Part shown: piece by piece, positions 1 to 21,092 of the stretch
How the letters are laid out: every line of letters begins with the position of its first letter
Position numbering within the stretch: position 1 is the stretch's first letter
NCBI RefSeq assembly: GCF_004212215.1
Contig: NZ_QVFV01000002.1
Location: forward strand, 606,482 to 670,481
Reading direction: 5' to 3'
Origin: Leptolyngbya iicbica LK
Lineage (GTDB): Bacteria > Cyanobacteriota > Cyanobacteriia > Phormidesmidales > Phormidesmidaceae
Length of the DNA: 64,000 nt
Notes under the pieces: model-generated
The model's input: the letters and a program-made list of their open reading frames with translations, nothing else
What the model was told of the DNA's origin: nothing
Databases searched by the model: none
Program-made: the position numbers and the translations under genes

Positions 1-114
1 CACTGGAGTCTCGGTAACCAGACGACACCCGCGATGGCCATAGGGTATGGTGAACCCCCACTCTCAACTCCTGAACTCTTGACTCTGCCAGGGTTTCAAT
101 CAATTACCTCTTAA
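1..114 (+). pseudogene. Transposase C-terminal fragment, cut by the window edge
   Basis: The first frame reads HWSLGNQTTPAMAIGYGEPP and runs to a TAA at 112-114. It is almost identical at DNA level to the end of the transposase fragment at 1978-2337. The pattern HNW-RPHWSLG-TTPAMA is typical of the last part of a DDE transposase resembling the IS1-like proteins common in cyanobacteria. One base difference (CAA for TAA) removes the stop used by the second copy, so this copy reads six residues further. Whether the gene is intact depends on sequence left of the window. Confidence 0.6.
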
Positions 115-126
115 CATCCCAGTGCC
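1..126 (+). repeat. Direct repeat, copy 1 (IS right end)
   Basis: These 126 bases recur at 2239-2364 with only two visible differences (C/T at 97 and at 116). The repeat covers the transposase 3' end, the short tail after the stop codon and ends at ...CAGTGCCC, where both copies diverge into unrelated DNA. CAGTGCCC is therefore probably the right terminus of the IS. Confidence 0.85.
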
Positions 127-465
127 CTTTGCCTCGGATTGTTGGCTCCACAAGAGCGAGATCGCTCGTGCCTCGAAGCGCAAACGCAGGCACTTAAACG
201 CTCGAATCGAGTTTTACAAAACGGTGAAATTCCCGGCATGAGATTCCCAAAAGTTTTCTGCACCACCAGGTAACACGTACTTTATTGAAGGAGTAGTGAA
301 GATTTCACTGCACGGTTTCAATAATTCTATTTTTGAGTTTATGTTCATACAGAAATATACATTGATGTCAGTTATTTAAATTTACTTCGCACACATCGAA
401 GTGTCGCGCTAAAAATTAGAGCCAAAAGCTTTTCCCAGAAATCAATATAGTTGCCTATAAATAAA
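127..465. other. Non-coding stretch upstream of the glycosyltransferase
   Basis: No convincing gene is visible here. The composition becomes clearly AT-rich from about 290 onward, matching the gene that follows rather than the GC-richer neighbourhood. No clear promoter or terminator was recognised. Confidence 0.5.
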
Positions 466-1899
466 ATGAGGAAAAATCACTTGAAAATAAAGAAAACCTT
501 GGTAGGGACTTTGCTGCTCTTAGTTACTACGTTTTTATGGTATCGACTAGGAGAATCTCATTTAAATAGCTGGGATGAAGCCAGATATGCAATTCATGCT
601 ATTGAAGCTGCAAACCATGGCAACTGGCTATTTCCCCATTTGTTTGGCTCCCCTGACACTACAATGTATGACAAACCTCCGCTGGGGGTGTGGCTAATTG
701 CATCAAGCATTAAACTATTTGGTATAAACGAATTTGCCGTAAGGTTTTGGTCAGTTGTTGCTGCCACAGGAACTGTGATGGTAGTGTTCTTATTTGGCTC
801 ATCCATTAGCAGTGTAGCAACCGGTGCTCTTGGCTCATTAGTTCTTCTGACAACACATGGTTACTTAGGCTTTCATGCTACGAGATCAGGTGATTTTGAT
901 GTCATCTTCACGTTTTTTACAACCTTAGCAACGTGTTTCTTTTACTCAGGCTATAGCGATAGTAAAAAGAATCACTATTTCTTTTGGTACTTCATCTTAA
1001 TGGCATGTGCTTTTATGTTGAAGAGCATCTTGGTTGTACCTTTTATTCTGATGGCTTTCACCTTCTCCTTCTGTCAAAATAGCGCCCGAAAATGTTTTCT
1101 TAATAAATGGTCTGCTTGGGGACTTCTTGCCGGATTGGCATTAATAGGGATATGGTTTACTCTATGCCTGTTCTACGTTGATGGTTTTGCTCAAGGAGTA
1201 TTTTCGCGTTTTACAGGTAGAGTAACCGATTCAATCGACTCGCATGGAGGACCTTGGTACTTCTATTTTCCGGTTTTGTTAAGGCAATTTGGAAAGCCTT
1301 GGGCTTTTTTCCTTGCTTTTAGCATAATCTATTCTACTCGGAGATTGTGGAGACGGGAAGCGATTATGCTCTTCGTAACCCTATGGGTATTTGTTCCTCT
1401 TGTTCTTTTGTGTATAGCTCAGACAAAGCTTTCTTGGTATACGATACCCATTATGCCGGGAATTGCATTGTTTCTAGCTTTGAACATAACTAACGCATAC
1501 TATTACAATAGTAATCAATATCTTAAGGCTGCTATTCTCATAATTTTTTCTGCAGCTCTTATAAAGTCGGCATCTTCTGCGGGAGAACTTGTCATGAAAA
1601 CAAATGAGTTTGAGCAGATTCATGCAGTTCAAACTCTCGCACCGAAACTATCAAATGTATCGGATGTATATATAGATTTTTCTACTTTGCCTCGTCACTT
1701 GAGATACTCTTTGCCCTTCTATGTCTATGCACATACAAATGGGAGAGTATATCGTCTTGATGACGATAACCGGATGTTGATAACTGGAGAAGATGTTGTA
1801 CTAATCTTAGATGGAGAGACTACTATGCAACTGCCGATGAATAAAGAATTAGAGGAACTCGCCAACGTAGAGGGTGTGCAGTTACTGAAGCTAAAGTGA
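466..1899 (+). CDS. ArnT/PMT-type (GT39/GT83) membrane glycosyltransferase
   Basis: The protein is a multi-pass membrane protein of about 477 residues. An N-terminal hydrophobic helix is followed by a first periplasmic loop with WDEARYAIHA, the acidic DE motif typical of dolichyl-phosphate-mannose mannosyltransferase and ArnT relatives. YDKPPLGVWL next to it is another hallmark of this superfamily. Many hydrophobic helices follow, then a soluble C-terminal part. Such enzymes move a sugar from a lipid carrier to a protein or lipid on the outer face of the membrane; the substrate here is unknown. ATG at 466 is preferred, with an in-frame TTG at 451. No strong ribosome binding site is seen. The gene is markedly AT-richer than the genes to its right and is bracketed by IS ends, which suggests recent acquisition. 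Confidence 0.8.
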   Translation: MRKNHLKIKKTLVGTLLLLVTTFLWYRLGESHLNSWDEARYAIHAIEAANHGNWLFPHLFGSPDTTMYDKPPLGVWLIASSIKLFGINEFAVRFWSVVAATGTVMVVFLFGSSISSVATGALGSLVLLTTHGYLGFHATRSGDFDVIFTFFTTLATCFFYSGYSDSKKNHYFFWYFILMACAFMLKSILVVPFILMAFTFSFCQNSARKCFLNKWSAWGLLAGLALIGIWFTLCLFYVDGFAQGVFSRFTGRVTDSIDSHGGPWYFYFPVLLRQFGKPWAFFLAFSIIYSTRRLWRREAIMLFVTLWVFVPLVLLCIAQTKLSWYTIPIMPGIALFLALNITNAYYYNSNQYLKAAILIIFSAALIKSASSAGELVMKTNEFEQIHAVQTLAPKLSNVSDVYIDFSTLPRHLRYSLPFYVYAHTNGRVYRLDDDNRMLITGEDVVLILDGETTMQLPMNKELEELANVEGVQLLKLK

Positions 1900-1977
1900 A
1901 GGAAGCCTGCCAAGTTTGGCTAAAAGTGTAGGGGGCACTGGTTCTCTAAAGGGTGACAGCTAGAATGGACGGAAAGT

Positions 1978-2337
1978 TTGACGACAGGGGCTAGAAGTAG
2001 CGATAAAAATCAAAGGTTCCCAAGGACAACGCCGCGTCGTTTGGCTCAAAAGCGCCTCCCCTTCACCGCGGTCAGTCCCACTCATGACGTGCATGCCAAC
2101 CACAATGAGGCGCAAAACAGCGCCTTAAGACGCCGGGCCCGTGCTTATCGAAGACGCCAAATTCTCTATGCTAAACGCGGTGAGGGACTGCAGCGAGCAT
2201 TGAATGTCCAATGTCTGATCCATAACTGGCTGCGGCCGCACTGGAGTCTCGGTAACCAGACGACACCCGCGATGGCCATAGGGTATGGTGAACCCCCACT
2301 CTCAACTCCTGAACTCTTGACTCTGCCAGGGTTTTAA
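1978..2337 (+). pseudogene. Transposase remnant (DDE type, 3' part)
   Basis: The open frame of 119 codons carries only the C-terminal third of a DDE transposase: HANHNEAQNSALRRRARAYR, then YAKRGEGLQRAL and the HNWLRPHWSLG block. There is no N-terminal DNA-binding part and no complete catalytic triad. The first 30 or so codons, from a TTG, do not look like the family and may be frameshifted. The last third repeats positions 1-114. The remnant is probably inactive. Confidence 0.65.
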
Positions 2338-2364
2338 TCAATTACCTCTTAACACCCCAGTGCC
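2239..2364 (+). repeat. Direct repeat, copy 2 (IS right end)
   Basis: This is the second copy of the 126-base repeat at 1-126, in the same orientation. The two copies bracket the AT-rich glycosyltransferase gene. The right boundary, CAGTGCCC, runs straight into the coding frame of the next gene. Confidence 0.85.
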
Positions 2365-3028
2365 CAGTCGCTGGAGTCAACAACGCGAAGAGGCTGCCGC
2401 TCAGCGCCATGCCATCAATCTGCAATACCTAAATCCGCTGCGGCTCTGGCTCGAAGAAACCTATGTGCGGTTGCAACTGATTGAGACAGAATTGGCGCTG
2501 AGCGATCGCCCTTCGCCCCTCCTCAGCGTTCCAGCACCAGCCGCCATCTCCCAGCAAGATGCCATCTGGTTTAACCAGGCCGGTGCGTACTTAGCCTCAA
2601 CCTGTTACATCACGGCCTGCCTATTTTGGGCGCTTAAACAGGTGCGAGAGCATTTGCCCTATTTGCGGTTGTCGCGTGAAGGTGACACGGAGTTAATGAC
2701 CCTGATGTTTCAGGTCAGTCAGGCATTTTTACAAGATCTGGGCATCTTTTACGTGATTCAGCCCAGCCTCGGCAATGATGTGTATCTTGCCAGCCAACAA
2801 CGATTGATGACCTATCGCGAATTTTGTGAGCGACTTCAGCAACCAGAGGAACGAGTCTGGAGCGATCGCCTCATACAGTTCTACCTGGATATTGGACAAC
2901 GCCGAAGACCGCAGAATTTAGCCGCCGCGCTACAGGCCATTCGTACCCTCTCCGCCTTTTTAGATGAGCAAATTGGGGCTGGCGTTTCCATCCGCGATCG
3001 CCTCAACGCCGAGGGCATTACCTCCTGA
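2360..3028 (+). CDS. Hypothetical protein, probably 5'-truncated by the IS
   Basis: The frame opens with a GTG that lies inside the IS terminus (CAGTGCCC) and continues as coding sequence. The native start has therefore probably been lost and the GTG is only a fortuitous start. The 222-residue product is soluble and mostly helical, with an internal Trp/Phe-rich stretch (ITACLFWALKQVREHLPYLR). GCGATCGCC octamers occur in it and its codon use is like that of the chromosomal genes to the right. I do not recognise a family. An intact homologue with extra N-terminal residues would confirm the truncation. Confidence 0.6.
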   Translation: MPSRWSQQREEAAAQRHAINLQYLNPLRLWLEETYVRLQLIETELALSDRPSPLLSVPAPAAISQQDAIWFNQAGAYLASTCYITACLFWALKQVREHLPYLRLSREGDTELMTLMFQVSQAFLQDLGIFYVIQPSLGNDVYLASQQRLMTYREFCERLQQPEERVWSDRLIQFYLDIGQRRRPQNLAAALQAIRTLSAFLDEQIGAGVSIRDRLNAEGITS

Positions 3029-9160: not shown

Positions 9161-10324
9161 ATGGCCAAAGGACAAGTCAAGATTGAAGCTTACGCCGAAC
9201 GCTTACGCTTGAGATGGAGCTATCGGAGCAAGCGCTATTGTTTGTCAGTCGGGTTGCCGGACAGCATCATTAATCGCAAAGTCGCGGCGCAAAAAGCCCA
9301 GCAGATTGAATTGGACATGCTCAGTGGTAACTTTGATCCCACTTTGCAGAAATACAAGCCTGAAGATCCACTTCCGATGGTTGCGACTGGGTCTCAGAAA
9401 ACTCAGACTTATACCGACGTTTTTAAGCAGCACTGGGATGAGTTTGTGGAAGATAAGGGGCAGCGGCTAGACAACCCCTTCACCATCGTGGGTATGTACA
9501 ACCCGATTCCCAAAAAGGTGCATAATTTCGGGCGCAAGATTATTGGCCGCCGTGAAGCCCAAGAGTTCGTCACTTTCATGCTGCAGAGTGCTTCTCCCGC
9601 CACCATTAAGAAACAGGTGATCATCCTGAATGATTTTGGCAACTGGGTGCAGCAGAATAAGCTGGTGGAGGCAGGCTGGGAAAATCCGTTTACCGGGTTG
9701 ACGGAGATGTGCCACCTGGTGCCACCGCTTAAAGTTCCTCCCTTCAGCGAAGCGGAAATTAAGCAGATCATCGATACCTTTCGCAACGATCGCTACTACA
9801 CTCATTACACCAACTATGTGCGGTTCTTATTTATGACGGGCTGTAGAACCAGTGAGGCCATCGGCCTCCAGTGGAAGCATATCCGTCGCGACTTTACCGG
9901 AATCACGTTTAACGAAACCCTGGTGCGTAAGGGCACCGGCACGGCTCGCTTGCGAAAGGCCACCAAAACGAATCGGGCTCGGTTTTTCCCGTGTAACGAT
10001 GACCTACAGAACCTGTTGTTAACCATTCGCCCTGAAGACTATAAGCCCGATACCCTGGTCTTTCCCAGCCCGAAGGGTAAACCGATTGATGCGACCAACT
10101 TCCTAAATCGGGCCTGGCAGAGCATTTTGAAGAAGTGCGGCATGACTCAAGAAAACGGGCTGTATCGCACCCAGTACAACACCCGGCACACGTTCATTAG
10201 CCACATGTTAGCGAAGGGGATGTCGGTGATTGAGGTGGCCAAGCTGACCGGCCATGACCCTAAAATTCTGTTGGAGCACTATGCTGGCCTCATTAGTCAG
10301 ATTGAGGTGCCCACGTTCTTTTAG
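9161..10324 (+). CDS. Tyrosine recombinase / integrase
   Basis: The 387-residue protein has an N-terminal arm-binding-like part, a SAM-like core-binding domain and a C-terminal catalytic domain. Visible active-site residues are Arg229 (TGCRTSEAIG), Lys269 in the beta-hairpin (ATKTNR), Arg342 (YNTRHTF, where the first His of the usual HxxR box is Tyr, as in many phage integrases), His365 (TGHDPKIL) and Tyr374 (LEHYAG). It would integrate and excise the element that starts at the tRNA-Gly. ATG at 9161 gives a sensible N-terminus. The excisionase-like and repressor genes lie 1.7-2 kb downstream. Confidence 0.92.
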   Translation: MAKGQVKIEAYAERLRLRWSYRSKRYCLSVGLPDSIINRKVAAQKAQQIELDMLSGNFDPTLQKYKPEDPLPMVATGSQKTQTYTDVFKQHWDEFVEDKGQRLDNPFTIVGMYNPIPKKVHNFGRKIIGRREAQEFVTFMLQSASPATIKKQVIILNDFGNWVQQNKLVEAGWENPFTGLTEMCHLVPPLKVPPFSEAEIKQIIDTFRNDRYYTHYTNYVRFLFMTGCRTSEAIGLQWKHIRRDFTGITFNETLVRKGTGTARLRKATKTNRARFFPCNDDLQNLLLTIRPEDYKPDTLVFPSPKGKPIDATNFLNRAWQSILKKCGMTQENGLYRTQYNTRHTFISHMLAKGMSVIEVAKLTGHDPKILLEHYAGLISQIEVPTFF

Positions 10325-11100: not shown

Positions 11101-11736
11101 TTAGAGTTTCTGACCACTCCAAACAATCTTCCCCATCAGGCTTAATTCATTGGATTCATCAGGCAATCCAATTGCAAAAGTCTCATAGGCAGAATGATCA
11201 CTTAAAACTCTCAGGATCTTGCCTGCGACATATTGCAGACGTTTCACCAAAATACGATCGCCCAGCTTCACCAAATAAATACCGTGATTGACAGTGGCAA
11301 GATCGCGATCTCTCGTATCGATCAGAACCAAATCTCCCATATGTAAAGTCGGTTCCATACTGTCGTCTGGCATCTGAGTTAGGAGCAAGTTGTCAAACGA
11401 GTCGGGGAACTGTTTTTGAAGCCAATCAGTCTCAAAAGCTAGTGGATTTTTGTAGGTATACTTTTCGGCTAGCGATATCGTCGACTCTTTTATTGTCGCT
11501 GAACCAGCCGCCAGCCACTCCAGGTTGACATTGGCCGTGCGAGCTATAGCGAGTAGAGCGGGTCGGGTTGGTTCGCTTTGTCCATTCAGATACTGCCGTA
11601 GCACTGTGTCCGAGAACCCGCATTCGCGGGCAAACCCGCGAATACTTTGATCCCCAAGAGCTTGCTTTAATCGTACCGGAAACGTTTCAGCGCTTTCGAC
11701 ATCCGCCTGTTTCCCCTCAGAGGTTGGGTTAGTCAT
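11101..11736 (-). CDS. Phage-type repressor (XRE HTH plus S24 LexA-like peptidase)
   Basis: The 211-residue protein has an N-terminal XRE helix-turn-helix (residues about 20-75, with GFARECGFSDTVLRQYLNGQ) and a C-terminal S24 domain. The likely catalytic Ser126 is in DDSMEPTLHMGD and Lys165 is in ILVKRL. An Ala-Gly pair at 77-78 between the domains could be the self-cleavage point. It is therefore probably an SOS-sensitive repressor that keeps the element quiet until DNA damage. It is divergent from the Ner-like gene across a region with a perfect 16-base palindrome inside a promoter. Confidence 0.9.
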   Translation of the reverse strand: MTNPTSEGKQADVESAETFPVRLKQALGDQSIRGFARECGFSDTVLRQYLNGQSEPTRPALLAIARTANVNLEWLAAGSATIKESTISLAEKYTYKNPLAFETDWLQKQFPDSFDNLLLTQMPDDSMEPTLHMGDLVLIDTRDRDLATVNHGIYLVKLGDRILVKRLQYVAGKILRVLSDHSAYETFAIGLPDESNELSLMGKIVWSGQKL

Positions 11737-17366: not shown

Positions 17367-17408
17367 GGGCTCTAGCTTGGCTTAATAAATTTGTTTAACA
17401 AAGCCGCT

Positions 17409-19310
17409 TTATCTTGAAATGGGGAAGAACCCGTATCTACCAAAGTCTTCACGTTTGGTGAAATGTATAACATTGCTTCTCGCTTCCAGGCCTTGAGGAG
17501 GAGGAGTGTTTTCCAGTATTACTACTTGGCTATCTTGGAGATTACGCGACAAGTAATCATAAAAGCGAGGCTTCACATCGGATTCTGCTAAGGCAATATC
17601 TTCTTCTGATAAGTCTGCATCCTCTGATTCATCGGGAGATTTATAAGCTAGTAAAGGAGAATCAAGAACGACAAATCCCGGATGTGGTAAGTTTCTTTGC
17701 TGACAAAATTCCATAAGGCCAATACTCATCGCCGCATGAGTAACTGCTCTAACTCCTTTTCCATTGCTAGAGCGAAGCTGCCCATTGATCACTAAGTCTT
17801 TTTCTGACGTATCAAAATGAGCTCTGTCGGCTTCTGGAAAGTTCCAACTTTGCAACAGATTTAAAACATGCTGAGCATAATCATCAAGAAACGTTGTCGA
17901 TAAATCAATCGGTGTCGTTTCTACAGGAGTTTGCCGGGGAGACTCTACAGGAATTTCTCTTAGAAGAGTCTGTTTCTTTTCTCTGTATAGATTCAAACGA
18001 TCTAGTTTTTCGAGTATTTGATTTTGCTCATTTATCTGAGGGACAAGGTTACTTAAGCTAAACTCAACGTTACCTATTGGTGCAGTTATCGTCTCTATCT
18101 CACCATTTAGTTCTTGTAAACTTGGACGAATTTGTTCTCGCTGTTGCTGCAAATCGAAGAGTTCAAGCGTGAGCTCGGATACAGTTTGTTCAAGTTCCGT
18201 TGATAACCTCTGTATCTTAGCAATTTCCGCTCTAGCAGCGTGTACAATCTGTTCTACATTGCCATCACATGATTCATTTTGGTGTTGTTCATTTGGAGGT
18301 GTGCCACACAAAGGACAAGGTGTTGGCTCTAAATGTACGAAGAAAGAGCCAGACTCTTCTATCGATGTGAGACGCTCTATGTCTACCTGATAGTTATTTT
18401 GAAGCAGTTCAAAACGTGACAATTGTGAGTCGATCTCATCAATTCGATTTGAAAGTCTCTGAATTTCATTCAATATTTGACGGCGTCTTGCTTGTCGCTC
18501 ATTAAGCTCTCCCCTTACTTGAGCAAGCATTGTCTCCTGTGTCTGAATGTGTTGATTGAGCTCCGCTATTCGTTGTTCGATCTCACTTCGATTTGCCTCT
18601 ACCCCCTCTAGAGAGAATTGCAAGCTGCTGATAAACTCATTCATTAATTCAATTTTTGCAAGATAGTTTTGCCTTGTATTATCTTGTTCAATGATTCTTT
18701 CTTCTTCAGCAACTTGCGCACTATCGTCAACTCCAGTCAGTAATAGTTTAAAGACCGAAAATTCGACAGTTTTTAACATGTGCTGCCCTGTCAATATCGG
18801 AGAGGATTCTTTGAGTATTTCGGTTTCCTTGACCAATACCAAGTTAGCGAGATCACGAAAGCTGAGACTTCTTGTATTTCGATTTCGATTTGTTTGAACC
18901 AACTTGTCAAGAAGGCCAATTAAAGATAAGAGATAGCCTGAGAGATTATCTGTACGCCCTGGTGAGTGCCTTGCCCCAAGAGTTGTTCCGACTTGTGCTG
19001 GTTGAGAATCTAGTATCGCTCCCTCAAACTTTCTAAACCCACCTCCATTGGTACTTCTTTCAAGAGTAAATAGCTCTTGATTTGGTGCGTCGAAAATTAA
19101 CCTTGCTCTGTCATAACCATTTCTCTGTGGTATGTCTCTCAGTGGCCTGCTAGATCCAAGAAGAAAATCTATAGCCTCTAAGGTGAAAGACTTTCCAACA
19201 TTGGACGGTCCCCAGATTACATTCAACCCTGAGGTAAATTCTAGTATTGCAGGACGTCTGTCAGGTCCAGTGAAGGATAAGCCTTTGATTAGAAGCGGTT
19301 GCCAGGTCAT
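17409..19310 (-). CDS. ABC-3C system ATPase (SMC/Rad50-like)
   Basis: The 633-residue protein has a split SMC-like ATPase. Walker A is GPSNVGKS at residues 34-41, followed by two coiled-coil arms (about 200-315 and 350-450) joined at a zinc-hook-like CPLC (332-335). The C-terminal half has a signature-like SSNGKGVRAVTHAAM (514-528) and Walker B FVVLDSP (546-552). This is the ATP-driven sensor subunit of ABC-three-component conflict systems, which are thought to detect foreign nucleoprotein and switch on the effector. It is the last gene of the operon and its ATG overlaps the stop of the middle component (ATGA). The operon is AT-richer than the flanking conjugation genes. Confidence 0.85.
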   Translation of the reverse strand: MTWQPLLIKGLSFTGPDRRPAILEFTSGLNVIWGPSNVGKSFTLEAIDFLLGSSRPLRDIPQRNGYDRARLIFDAPNQELFTLERSTNGGGFRKFEGAILDSQPAQVGTTLGARHSPGRTDNLSGYLLSLIGLLDKLVQTNRNRNTRSLSFRDLANLVLVKETEILKESSPILTGQHMLKTVEFSVFKLLLTGVDDSAQVAEEERIIEQDNTRQNYLAKIELMNEFISSLQFSLEGVEANRSEIEQRIAELNQHIQTQETMLAQVRGELNERQARRRQILNEIQRLSNRIDEIDSQLSRFELLQNNYQVDIERLTSIEESGSFFVHLEPTPCPLCGTPPNEQHQNESCDGNVEQIVHAARAEIAKIQRLSTELEQTVSELTLELFDLQQQREQIRPSLQELNGEIETITAPIGNVEFSLSNLVPQINEQNQILEKLDRLNLYREKKQTLLREIPVESPRQTPVETTPIDLSTTFLDDYAQHVLNLLQSWNFPEADRAHFDTSEKDLVINGQLRSSNGKGVRAVTHAAMSIGLMEFCQQRNLPHPGFVVLDSPLLAYKSPDESEDADLSEEDIALAESDVKPRFYDYLSRNLQDSQVVILENTPPPQGLEARSNVIHFTKREDFGRYGFFPISR

Positions 19311-19795
19311 GAGAACCTGCTTGTTGAGCCTGATAGTGGTTGAAATTGATTTGTCCAGCTCCTAAAGAGTTGCCGTTCTTGGGCATAGATCTGGTCTGGA
19401 GTAAAGCTACCAAACGTTGAAACGACCCATTTAGAACGATCTCGAAGATTGAGGATATATTGCGAACTGAGCATTTCAAGAAAAGCACTTGCACTATCTG
19501 TCGCAACGTATGCAAATCCTTCATTAGATGCAACACGACTAGCCAAATTACGGCTCATCATCAACAGGAGGCCCCGTTCTATTAATTTACGTCTCACGGT
19601 CAACTCTCCTGAACGCATTGGAAGAGGTGCATGGAGACTTTCCGGACCACCTTCTATATCACCGGAGTGAACTGTCAGATAATCAAAAAAGACAAGGTAC
19701 TCCAAATCCAGACACATAGGAAATGCTTCTACCAAAATTGTAAGAGCTCGCAACCCTGATTCCATAGGGCTATTGAATGGTGAAACCACCATCAC
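19307..19795 (-). CDS. ABC-3C system middle component
   Basis: The 162-residue protein carries the hallmark block FFDYLTVHSGDIEGGPESLH, then MRSGELTVRRKLIERGLLLM and a later EMLSSQYILNLRDRSKWVV. From memory this is the pattern of an ABC-three-component middle component (type 2), a small helical adaptor between the ATPase and the effector subunit. Both ends overlap the neighbouring genes by four bases (ATGA), which implies translational coupling and fixed stoichiometry. Confidence 0.85.
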   Translation of the reverse strand: MMVVSPFNSPMESGLRALTILVEAFPMCLDLEYLVFFDYLTVHSGDIEGGPESLHAPLPMRSGELTVRRKLIERGLLLMMSRNLASRVASNEGFAYVATDSASAFLEMLSSQYILNLRDRSKWVVSTFGSFTPDQIYAQERQLFRSWTNQFQPLSGSTSRFS

Positions 19796-20904
19796 ACCTC
19801 CTTGCCACTAGGTACCCATATAAGCTTATCGTCGTTAGCCAATTGATGACAGATCCCCTGCCTATCTTTGGTCTCGGTCACTGTAACTAGCGGATTACTT
19901 GTTAAAGCTATACGTGTTGATTCCCTTATAACTTCATTCATTCGCGTCAATCCGTCTGGATGCGTATCTTCGCAGATATCTATTACACCATCTAGAATCT
20001 CGCTTTGCAATCTATCGAAAGTACCTGGTGGAACAGTATCACGAGCAAAGACTCTTAGCGATTCAGCACTATAAAAACGTTCGCGTTGTCTCAACATGTG
20101 ATTGTTGAGCTCTGGTTTTAGAGAGGATGAAATATCTGAAGCACTATTTATATCTATACTAAGATGCTCGCTATAAGCATCAAATATTTGTCTGATGTAT
20201 CTGCTCTCTTTCTCAGTAGGAGTTTCTGGTGGCGTATCAGGGGCTGGGCGCAAGTCCAGTCCGCCGCCGAATCTTACTGAGTGAAACGGAGTTGTTGCAT
20301 GCTCCTTAATTAATTCCACTGCAGTTTTATAGGAGAAGATTGAAAAGTCAAAATCCTCAAACCAATCAAGTAAATCACCTTCCAGGGGAATATTTGCTGT
20401 TGTAGTTATTTTATTAAGGCAATAAGTTTCCCAATTATTTTTAATACTTTCCTTCAATTCTGCAGGATTATCCATGAGTTTTGAAAGAGTGGTTCCGACC
20501 CCTTTAGGAGCGACAAAGAAGTATCGTCTAGGAGGAGCATATTGATTTTTGAATGAGTAGTAAATTATTTTGCCAAATTCAACCCAAACCATACTTGGAG
20601 ATAAGGAAGTGGCATATCTTTTACATTGAAAGTTGTCCCATACCCCAGATAGTCCATCATCATCTACATAGCCAGCCACATCAATACCCATGTCACCCGA
20701 GCCGGAATGACGGCGAATACGCTTATAAGATCCGACTGTCCCAGCACTTGCCCACTCCTCTATAAAAGCTTCCCACTCTTCTGGTGATGAGTTCACTAGA
20801 CGCATCTCTTTAGGAATGGGGATTCCGTTCATAACATGATCTGCTGATGGGTTACCCAAGGGAGGCTGTGGTGAAATCGGCCTCATATCTTCGTCTGAGA
20901 TCAA
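19792..20904 (-). CDS. ABC-3C effector: restriction-endonuclease-like domain plus C-terminal coupling domain
   Basis: The 370-residue protein has an N-terminal nuclease-like fold. EEWEAFIEEW (about 43-52) is followed by GDMGIDVAGY with Asp75 and then DNFQCKRY with Gln93 and Lys95, the D...QxK core of Mrr/restriction endonuclease-like enzymes. The C-terminal half (about 230-370) is helical and should be the domain that couples effectors to the ABC-3C core. It is the first gene of the operon. The frame opens with TTG 20904 behind an AGAGG; ATG 20886 is the alternative start. The likely role is cleaving DNA of an invader (or the host) when the ATPase is triggered. Confidence 0.8.
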   Translation of the reverse strand: MISDEDMRPISPQPPLGNPSADHVMNGIPIPKEMRLVNSSPEEWEAFIEEWASAGTVGSYKRIRRHSGSGDMGIDVAGYVDDDGLSGVWDNFQCKRYATSLSPSMVWVEFGKIIYYSFKNQYAPPRRYFFVAPKGVGTTLSKLMDNPAELKESIKNNWETYCLNKITTTANIPLEGDLLDWFEDFDFSIFSYKTAVELIKEHATTPFHSVRFGGGLDLRPAPDTPPETPTEKESRYIRQIFDAYSEHLSIDINSASDISSSLKPELNNHMLRQRERFYSAESLRVFARDTVPPGTFDRLQSEILDGVIDICEDTHPDGLTRMNEVIRESTRIALTSNPLVTVTETKDRQGICHQLANDDKLIWVPSGKEV

Positions 20905-21092
20905 ATGCCTCTATCCTCATGTAATCGCGTGTTCAACCCGAATTTATCTTACGAAAAGGAATGTTGTCACTCCGAACATACAGAATTCAATTAATTTGAC
21001 ATGAATTTTGAGTGTAAGCGACATTATTACTGACACAAATCCAGAAGTTCGCTGTTTGGTAGGTGTAGCCACCAATAATCCGAATGAACTAA
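20905..21092. other. Region between the defence operon and the IS
   Basis: AT-rich non-coding DNA that must hold the leftward promoter of the ABC-3C operon. No clear promoter was assigned. It ends with the TAA target-site copy of the IS. Confidence 0.4.

Follow-up and report, generated by a model that had tools for sequence, protein, structure and literature searches.

A glycosyltransferase gene bracketed by two IS1-family copies in Leptolyngbya iicbica LK: a probable composite transposon within an interrupted gene

In the stretch of 64,000 nucleotides of the Leptolyngbya iicbica LK genome that was analysed (the window), an AT-rich glycosyltransferase gene lies between two directly repeated copies of one IS1-family insertion sequence, and the whole block splits another gene in two. 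We consider it highly probable that this block is an IS1-family composite (compound) transposon which entered the host gene as one unit. Three observations make entry as one unit the most likely origin: an exact 8-bp duplication is found at the outer ends only, relatives of the same insertion sequence in the genome G056 also make 8-bp duplications, and the frame of the host gene is restored when the flanks are joined. The features are listed in Table 1, where coordinates refer to the window or to L003, the region that reaches leftward beyond it.

Table 1. Coordinates of the bracketing insertion sequences, the cargo, the duplicated target and the interrupted gene.
Feature	Location	Strand	Remark
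Host gene, 5' part	L003 13105-13213		
Target duplication, left copy CAGTCGCT	L003 13206-13213		Directly before IS copy 1
IS1-family copy 1 (left IS), right-hand part	window 1..126	+	Repeat search and left extension
IS4-family element, truncated right end	window 127..270	+	Last 37 transposase codons at 128-238, then terminal repeat
Glycosyltransferase, PMT_2 / ArnT-like GT-C family	window 466..1899	+	477 codons from ATG 466
IS1-family copy 2 (right IS)	window 1934..2364	+	431 bp; both ends kept, GGCACTGG...CCAGTGCC
Target duplication, right copy CAGTCGCT	window 2365..2372	.	8/8 match
Host gene, 3' part	window 2373..3028	+	Frame restored when flanks joined

The two IS1-family copies

The first-pass annotation of the window had described 126-base direct repeats with a common end, and this was borne out. 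The repeats at 1-126 and 2239-2364 (1-127 and 2239-2365 in the repeat search) are 98% identical, occur in two copies and both terminate in CAGTGCCC; the repeated DNA additionally takes in 1934-1967 and 1968-2062. When the sequence was extended to the left, as the annotation had proposed, the 126-bp repeats were revealed to be the right ends, and the best-matching parts, of two longer IS1-family insertion sequences, and copy 1 was found to be a near-complete element. Some 790 assembled bases separate the start of copy 1 from the window, and the copy extends over L003 13214-14126. The part outside the window comprises 784 bases (L003 13214-13997, corresponding to G000:C2:605695-606478) and a 3-N assembly gap at L003 13998-14000, just beyond the window edge. 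From the counterpart in copy 2 we estimated that about 176 bases are missing at this gap; with these added, copy 1 would measure about 1086 bp and be nearly complete. Copy 2 is internally deleted: it shares its left end, its right-hand part and its right end with copy 1 but lacks 655 bp relative to it, with the junction at 1967/1968. The two copies differ at 6 positions in the 255 bases compared, and the left end of copy 1 reads GGCACTTG. When the 126-bp end was searched against the 16 contigs (5.7 Mb) of the own genome, it matched twice, both times at this locus, and no further copy of this insertion sequence was found there.

Members of the IS1 family generate target duplications of 8-9 bp, and terminal inverted repeats and an 8-bp duplication are present here, as the family requires. 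The first protein of copy 1, whose frame is broken, scored 52.2 bits against the IS1 family model NF033558 (E 7.1e-14, cut-off 100), and a relative of this insertion sequence in G056, likewise partial, scored 63.5 bits. A C7 run, an A8 run and a 22-bp insert each mark a break in the frame of copy 1. The C7 run is also present in the G005 copy, both being one base off an uninterrupted frame, and among nine closely similar copies in G056 the homopolymer in the transposase frame is C8 in seven and C7 in two. This C7/C8 variation possibly marks a site of slippage or programmed frameshifting. The insert lies within the transposase frame at L003 13799-13820 and begins with CGCGTAGCGTGCCGCAG, which we take to be one of the small dispersed repeats of cyanobacteria. 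Of the copies aligned, one from G005 and one from G056, neither has it, but a near-identical insert occupies the equivalent position in a partial copy from another genus (G446, L091), so that this lineage of insertion sequences apparently carried the insert before it spread.

Two other IS1-family loci, considered as a possible source of transposase in trans, exist in the own genome. The GGCACTG/CAGTGCC pair was found around neither of them, nor did a search for perfect 12-base inverted repeats at a spacing of 600-1300 bases detect any at the two loci. Because the frame of copy 1 is broken, copy 2 lacks 655 bp and no other copy of the insertion sequence was found in the genome, the IS-gene-IS block now looks immobile.

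Target duplication, interrupted gene and origin of the block

The annotation had also suggested a search for target duplications, and one was found around the whole structure: the exact 8-bp duplication CAGTCGCT stands directly left of copy 1 and directly right of copy 2, and neither copy has a duplication of its own. When we compared the flanks over 8 bp, the outer pair matched at 8/8 positions, compared with 4/8 for copy 1 alone, 3/8 for copy 2 alone and 2/8 for the inner flanks; pairs of random positions in the window matched over 8 bp in 3 of 200000 cases. We then turned to G056, which belongs to the same class, and read end to end the related copies there that gave full-length first-part matches. 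These nine copies are 1066-1070 bp long, all carry GGCACTGG/CCAGTGCC ends, and an 8-bp duplication surrounds six of them and none surrounds the other three. Based on the six, we conclude that the outer duplication has the right length for this insertion sequence.

Joining the flanks at the duplication yields a single open frame of 254 amino acids. Homologues of this host gene are open across the insertion site in G012 (70% identity), G003 (63%) and G049 (62%), and five more distant homologues (34-50%; L020-L023 and L028) are also single frames, of 250-283 codons. The empty target site is thus recognisable from the restored frame and from the uninterrupted homologous genes. Homologues at E <= 0.001 were detected in 12 of 59 genomes, own genome included, and G004 and G002 hold host-gene fragments with stops. 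When seven proteins were tested in the surroundings of the G012, G003 and G049 homologues, only the host gene matched and the six flanking genes had no match, so that none of these regions represents the same locus in its empty state. The homologues therefore show the intact form of the gene, at other places in the genome, and not the same locus empty. The comparison with relatives that the annotation had called for thus favours an interrupted gene, though the uninterrupted homologues lie elsewhere in their genomes, and the case it had named as contrary, the glycosyltransferase in the same place in relatives lacking the IS copies, was not seen. The protein encoded by the 3' part of the host gene has no match in Pfam or NCBIfam.

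The block has two properties expected of a composite transposon. First, two copies of one insertion sequence bracket cargo that is not part of it. Second, a duplication of the length typical for that insertion sequence is present at the outer ends only. The sequence of events would then be as follows. Two directly repeated IS copies would have come to bracket the glycosyltransferase gene beside an IS4-family element, and a transposase would then have used the outermost end of each IS copy to move the 3.3-kb IS-cargo-IS block into the host gene, where 8 bp of the target became duplicated. We infer that the unit was moved by a single transposition and that the donor was another genome. Since copy 2 kept both of its ends in spite of the internal deletion, it could have served as a transposon end whether the deletion occurred before or after landing. 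The first-pass annotation had offered two routes, a composite-transposon-like capture or IS recombination that placed a surface-glycan gene at this locus; the general proposal is supported, and of the two routes transposition as a unit is favoured.

Here, we need to consider how else such a structure could arise. In an assembly in two steps, a single IS1-family element would have inserted first, making the 8-bp duplication, and a circle carrying the insertion sequence and the glycosyltransferase would then have recombined with it or inserted at it. This origin predicts the same outer-only duplication, and tracts as similar as these (6 differences in 255 bp) could recombine; however, it needs both a resident insertion sequence and a second molecule, no other copy of the insertion sequence was found in the genome, and transposition as a unit needs only one event. 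We therefore regard the two-step origin as unlikely. Still less credence can be given to an assembly artefact, in which a misjoin in the repeat mimics a bracketed gene. The gap within copy 1 lies where the copies would collapse, and it has to be kept in mind as a caveat on the composite reading, but the flanks are two halves of one gene that meet at an exact 8-bp duplication, unlike a chance misjoin, and the window itself contains no N, the sequence running unbroken from the 126-bp end of copy 1 through the glycosyltransferase to the right IS; an artefact is accordingly very improbable. Least probable of all is that two independent IS insertions flanked a gene already resident between the host-gene halves: the direct orientation and the differing inner flanks would agree with it, but each copy should then have its own 8-bp duplication (though three of the nine G056 copies show none) and neither does, only the outer pair of flanks matches, and relatives have an unbroken form of the gene that the glycosyltransferase divides here.

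The cargo and its surroundings

Between the composite's two IS copies, the glycosyltransferase may alternatively start at in-frame TTG codons at 451 and 481. It matched PF13231 with 51.3 bits (cut-off 26.1; 484-1896 searched) and PF02366 with 28.6 bits (cut-off 22.7). From its family, the product is predicted to be a multi-spanning membrane enzyme that would take a sugar from a lipid-phosphate carrier and transfer it to an acceptor at the cell envelope. Assignment as ArnT, the lipid A aminoarabinose transferase, was rejected, as the match to the ArnT model NF009784 was partial (query residues 10-362) and its 108.8 bits are far under the cut-off of 567. The structure predicted by AlphaFold from a four-row alignment had a mean pLDDT of 46.6, too poor for use, and when the sequence was compared with those of solved structures, none matched at E <= 0.001. 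Promoters and terminators in window 1-2500 were at chance level (3 and 2 found, compared with 4.1 and 2.2 in shuffled sequences).

The statement of the annotation that a gene of different base composition lies between the repeats was confirmed. The gene has a GC content of 40.0%, whereas the window has 52.7%; its GC3 of 0.37 compares with 0.58-0.70 for five neighbouring genes, and among 360 blocks of gene size from the window and its left flank, 3 have an equally low or lower GC content. This foreign-gene reading carries the caveat that other AT-rich stretches exist in the region. One lies just left of the composite, at L003 9601-11616, with blocks of 39-40% GC; it contains an ORF that by eye is ParA-like and a small partner ORF, and is perhaps another acquired piece. 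Two more, at window 17401-19416 and 19601-21016, have blocks of about 41-42% GC in a region of 53%. Elsewhere in the window, an ORF at 9161-10324 reads by eye like a tyrosine recombinase/integrase, and a LexA/CI-like repressor ORF lies on the opposite strand at 11101-11736; these two ORFs may mark a mobile island. The HIP1 word GCGATCGC, whose density is presumably a cyanobacterial marker, occurs 48 times in the 64 kb. Its absence from the cargo was discarded as a foreign mark, since 0 occurrences compared with about 1.4 expected is not significant.

PMT-type homologues of the glycosyltransferase are common, being found at E <= 0.001 in 53 of 59 relatives (own genome included), so an isolated sequence alone is no proof of transfer. 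Apart from the gene itself, the best-scoring match among the relatives is 29% identical, while short stretches of about 80-100 residues are up to 40% identical. At the level of the phylum, matches passing 1e-25 were found in 10 of 386 genomes including the own one, and the long matches in the other nine are weak, at 29-34% identity; in the order, the own genome and one other at 31% are the 2 of 63 that pass 1e-26. A pattern scan of the genome contigs gave six loci of 25-35% identity. No close copy of the gene was found in any of these three genome sets (relatives, phylum and order), which overlap and include the own genome. Among 78 plasmid records (10 of the 78 listed), no homologue had at least 60% identity or covered 80% at one place. 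The cargo DNA matched 21 plasmid records, and all of the five matches listed were 40 bases long. One phage record matched, with 36.5% identity over 22% of the glycosyltransferase query, and the viral contigs gave no match. None of these searches pointed to a donor. The IS-gene-IS unit occupies one site only in the own genome, and this, together with the lack of a close copy of the cargo gene in the three genome sets, weakens a claim of activity and leaves the structural claim as it is.

The cargo also contains the right end of an IS4-family element, cut off by IS copy 1. Positions 164-268 match three places in G012 at 77% identity and one place in G003 at 78%; we added 127-163 to the remnant since the frame runs on. 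The intact transposase of a G012 copy scored 112.8 bits against the IS4 model NF033591 (E 1.8e-32, cut-off 152) and also matched PF01609, while the 37 codons of the remnant had no family match of their own. Duplications of 9-10 bp, read by eye, accompany the three G012 copies, and the G012 transposase detected one further fragment in the own genome, at C2:929752-929940. When the 353 bases upstream of the glycosyltransferase were searched, matches were found in 23 of 192 genomes (own included); these are short and fall in the IS4-family terminal part, except the longest, of about 100 bases, in G012 and G003. Since an IS4-family right end abuts copy 1, the glycosyltransferase adjoined that element before the IS1-family copy reached the element's end.

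Comparison with known composite transposons

Composite transposons are most familiar as carriers of resistance genes, and Tn9 is an IS1-flanked example with such a cargo. Like Tn9, the block described here has two directly repeated IS1-family copies around a passenger gene. Unlike in Tn9, the cargo is a membrane glycosyltransferase with an IS4-family remnant and includes no resistance gene, and the insertion sequence is a distant and longer IS1-family type (about 1.07-1.09 kb), one copy of which is internally deleted.

A close parallel is Tn6330 (ISApl1-mcr-1-ISApl1), which is described as a direct-repeat composite with outer target duplications and fixed inner junctions, and which decays by deletion inside the downstream IS with the IS end retained (PMC5821093). 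The present block shares all of these features, including the decay of the downstream copy with its end kept. ISApl1 belongs to the IS30 family, makes 2-bp duplications and has 20 different insertion sites reported (PMC5821093), whereas the element here is of the IS1 family, made an 8-bp duplication and is known from one site. In Tn5, IS50L is defective (PMC10969869). One of two IS copies being defective is thus a likeness to Tn5, and the difference is that here copy 1 is frame-broken and copy 2 lacks 655 bp, so that neither seems to supply transposase now.

Our literature search found no cyanobacterial composite transposon that carries a glycosyltransferase between insertion sequences. To the first-pass annotation the analysis adds an exact 8-bp duplication at the outer ends, an interrupted host gene, the identity of the insertion sequence, the internally deleted copy 2 and the IS4-family layer in the cargo. 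The kind of event is already known: it is ordinary gene movement, unusually legible as its landing footprint is still exact. The locus offers a clean natural example, with a probable envelope gene as cargo, that still shows the footprint, two IS copies that look disabled and an older IS layer within the cargo. It is doubtful, though conceivable on the present analysis, that an environmental IS1-family composite transposon would serve as a ready-made cassette for changing the coat, passing glycosyltransferase genes for envelope glycans singly from strain to strain much as resistance genes are known to be moved by such elements. For the organism itself, the locus indicates that a foreign-looking glycosyltransferase may be installed in one step, at the cost of a broken resident gene.
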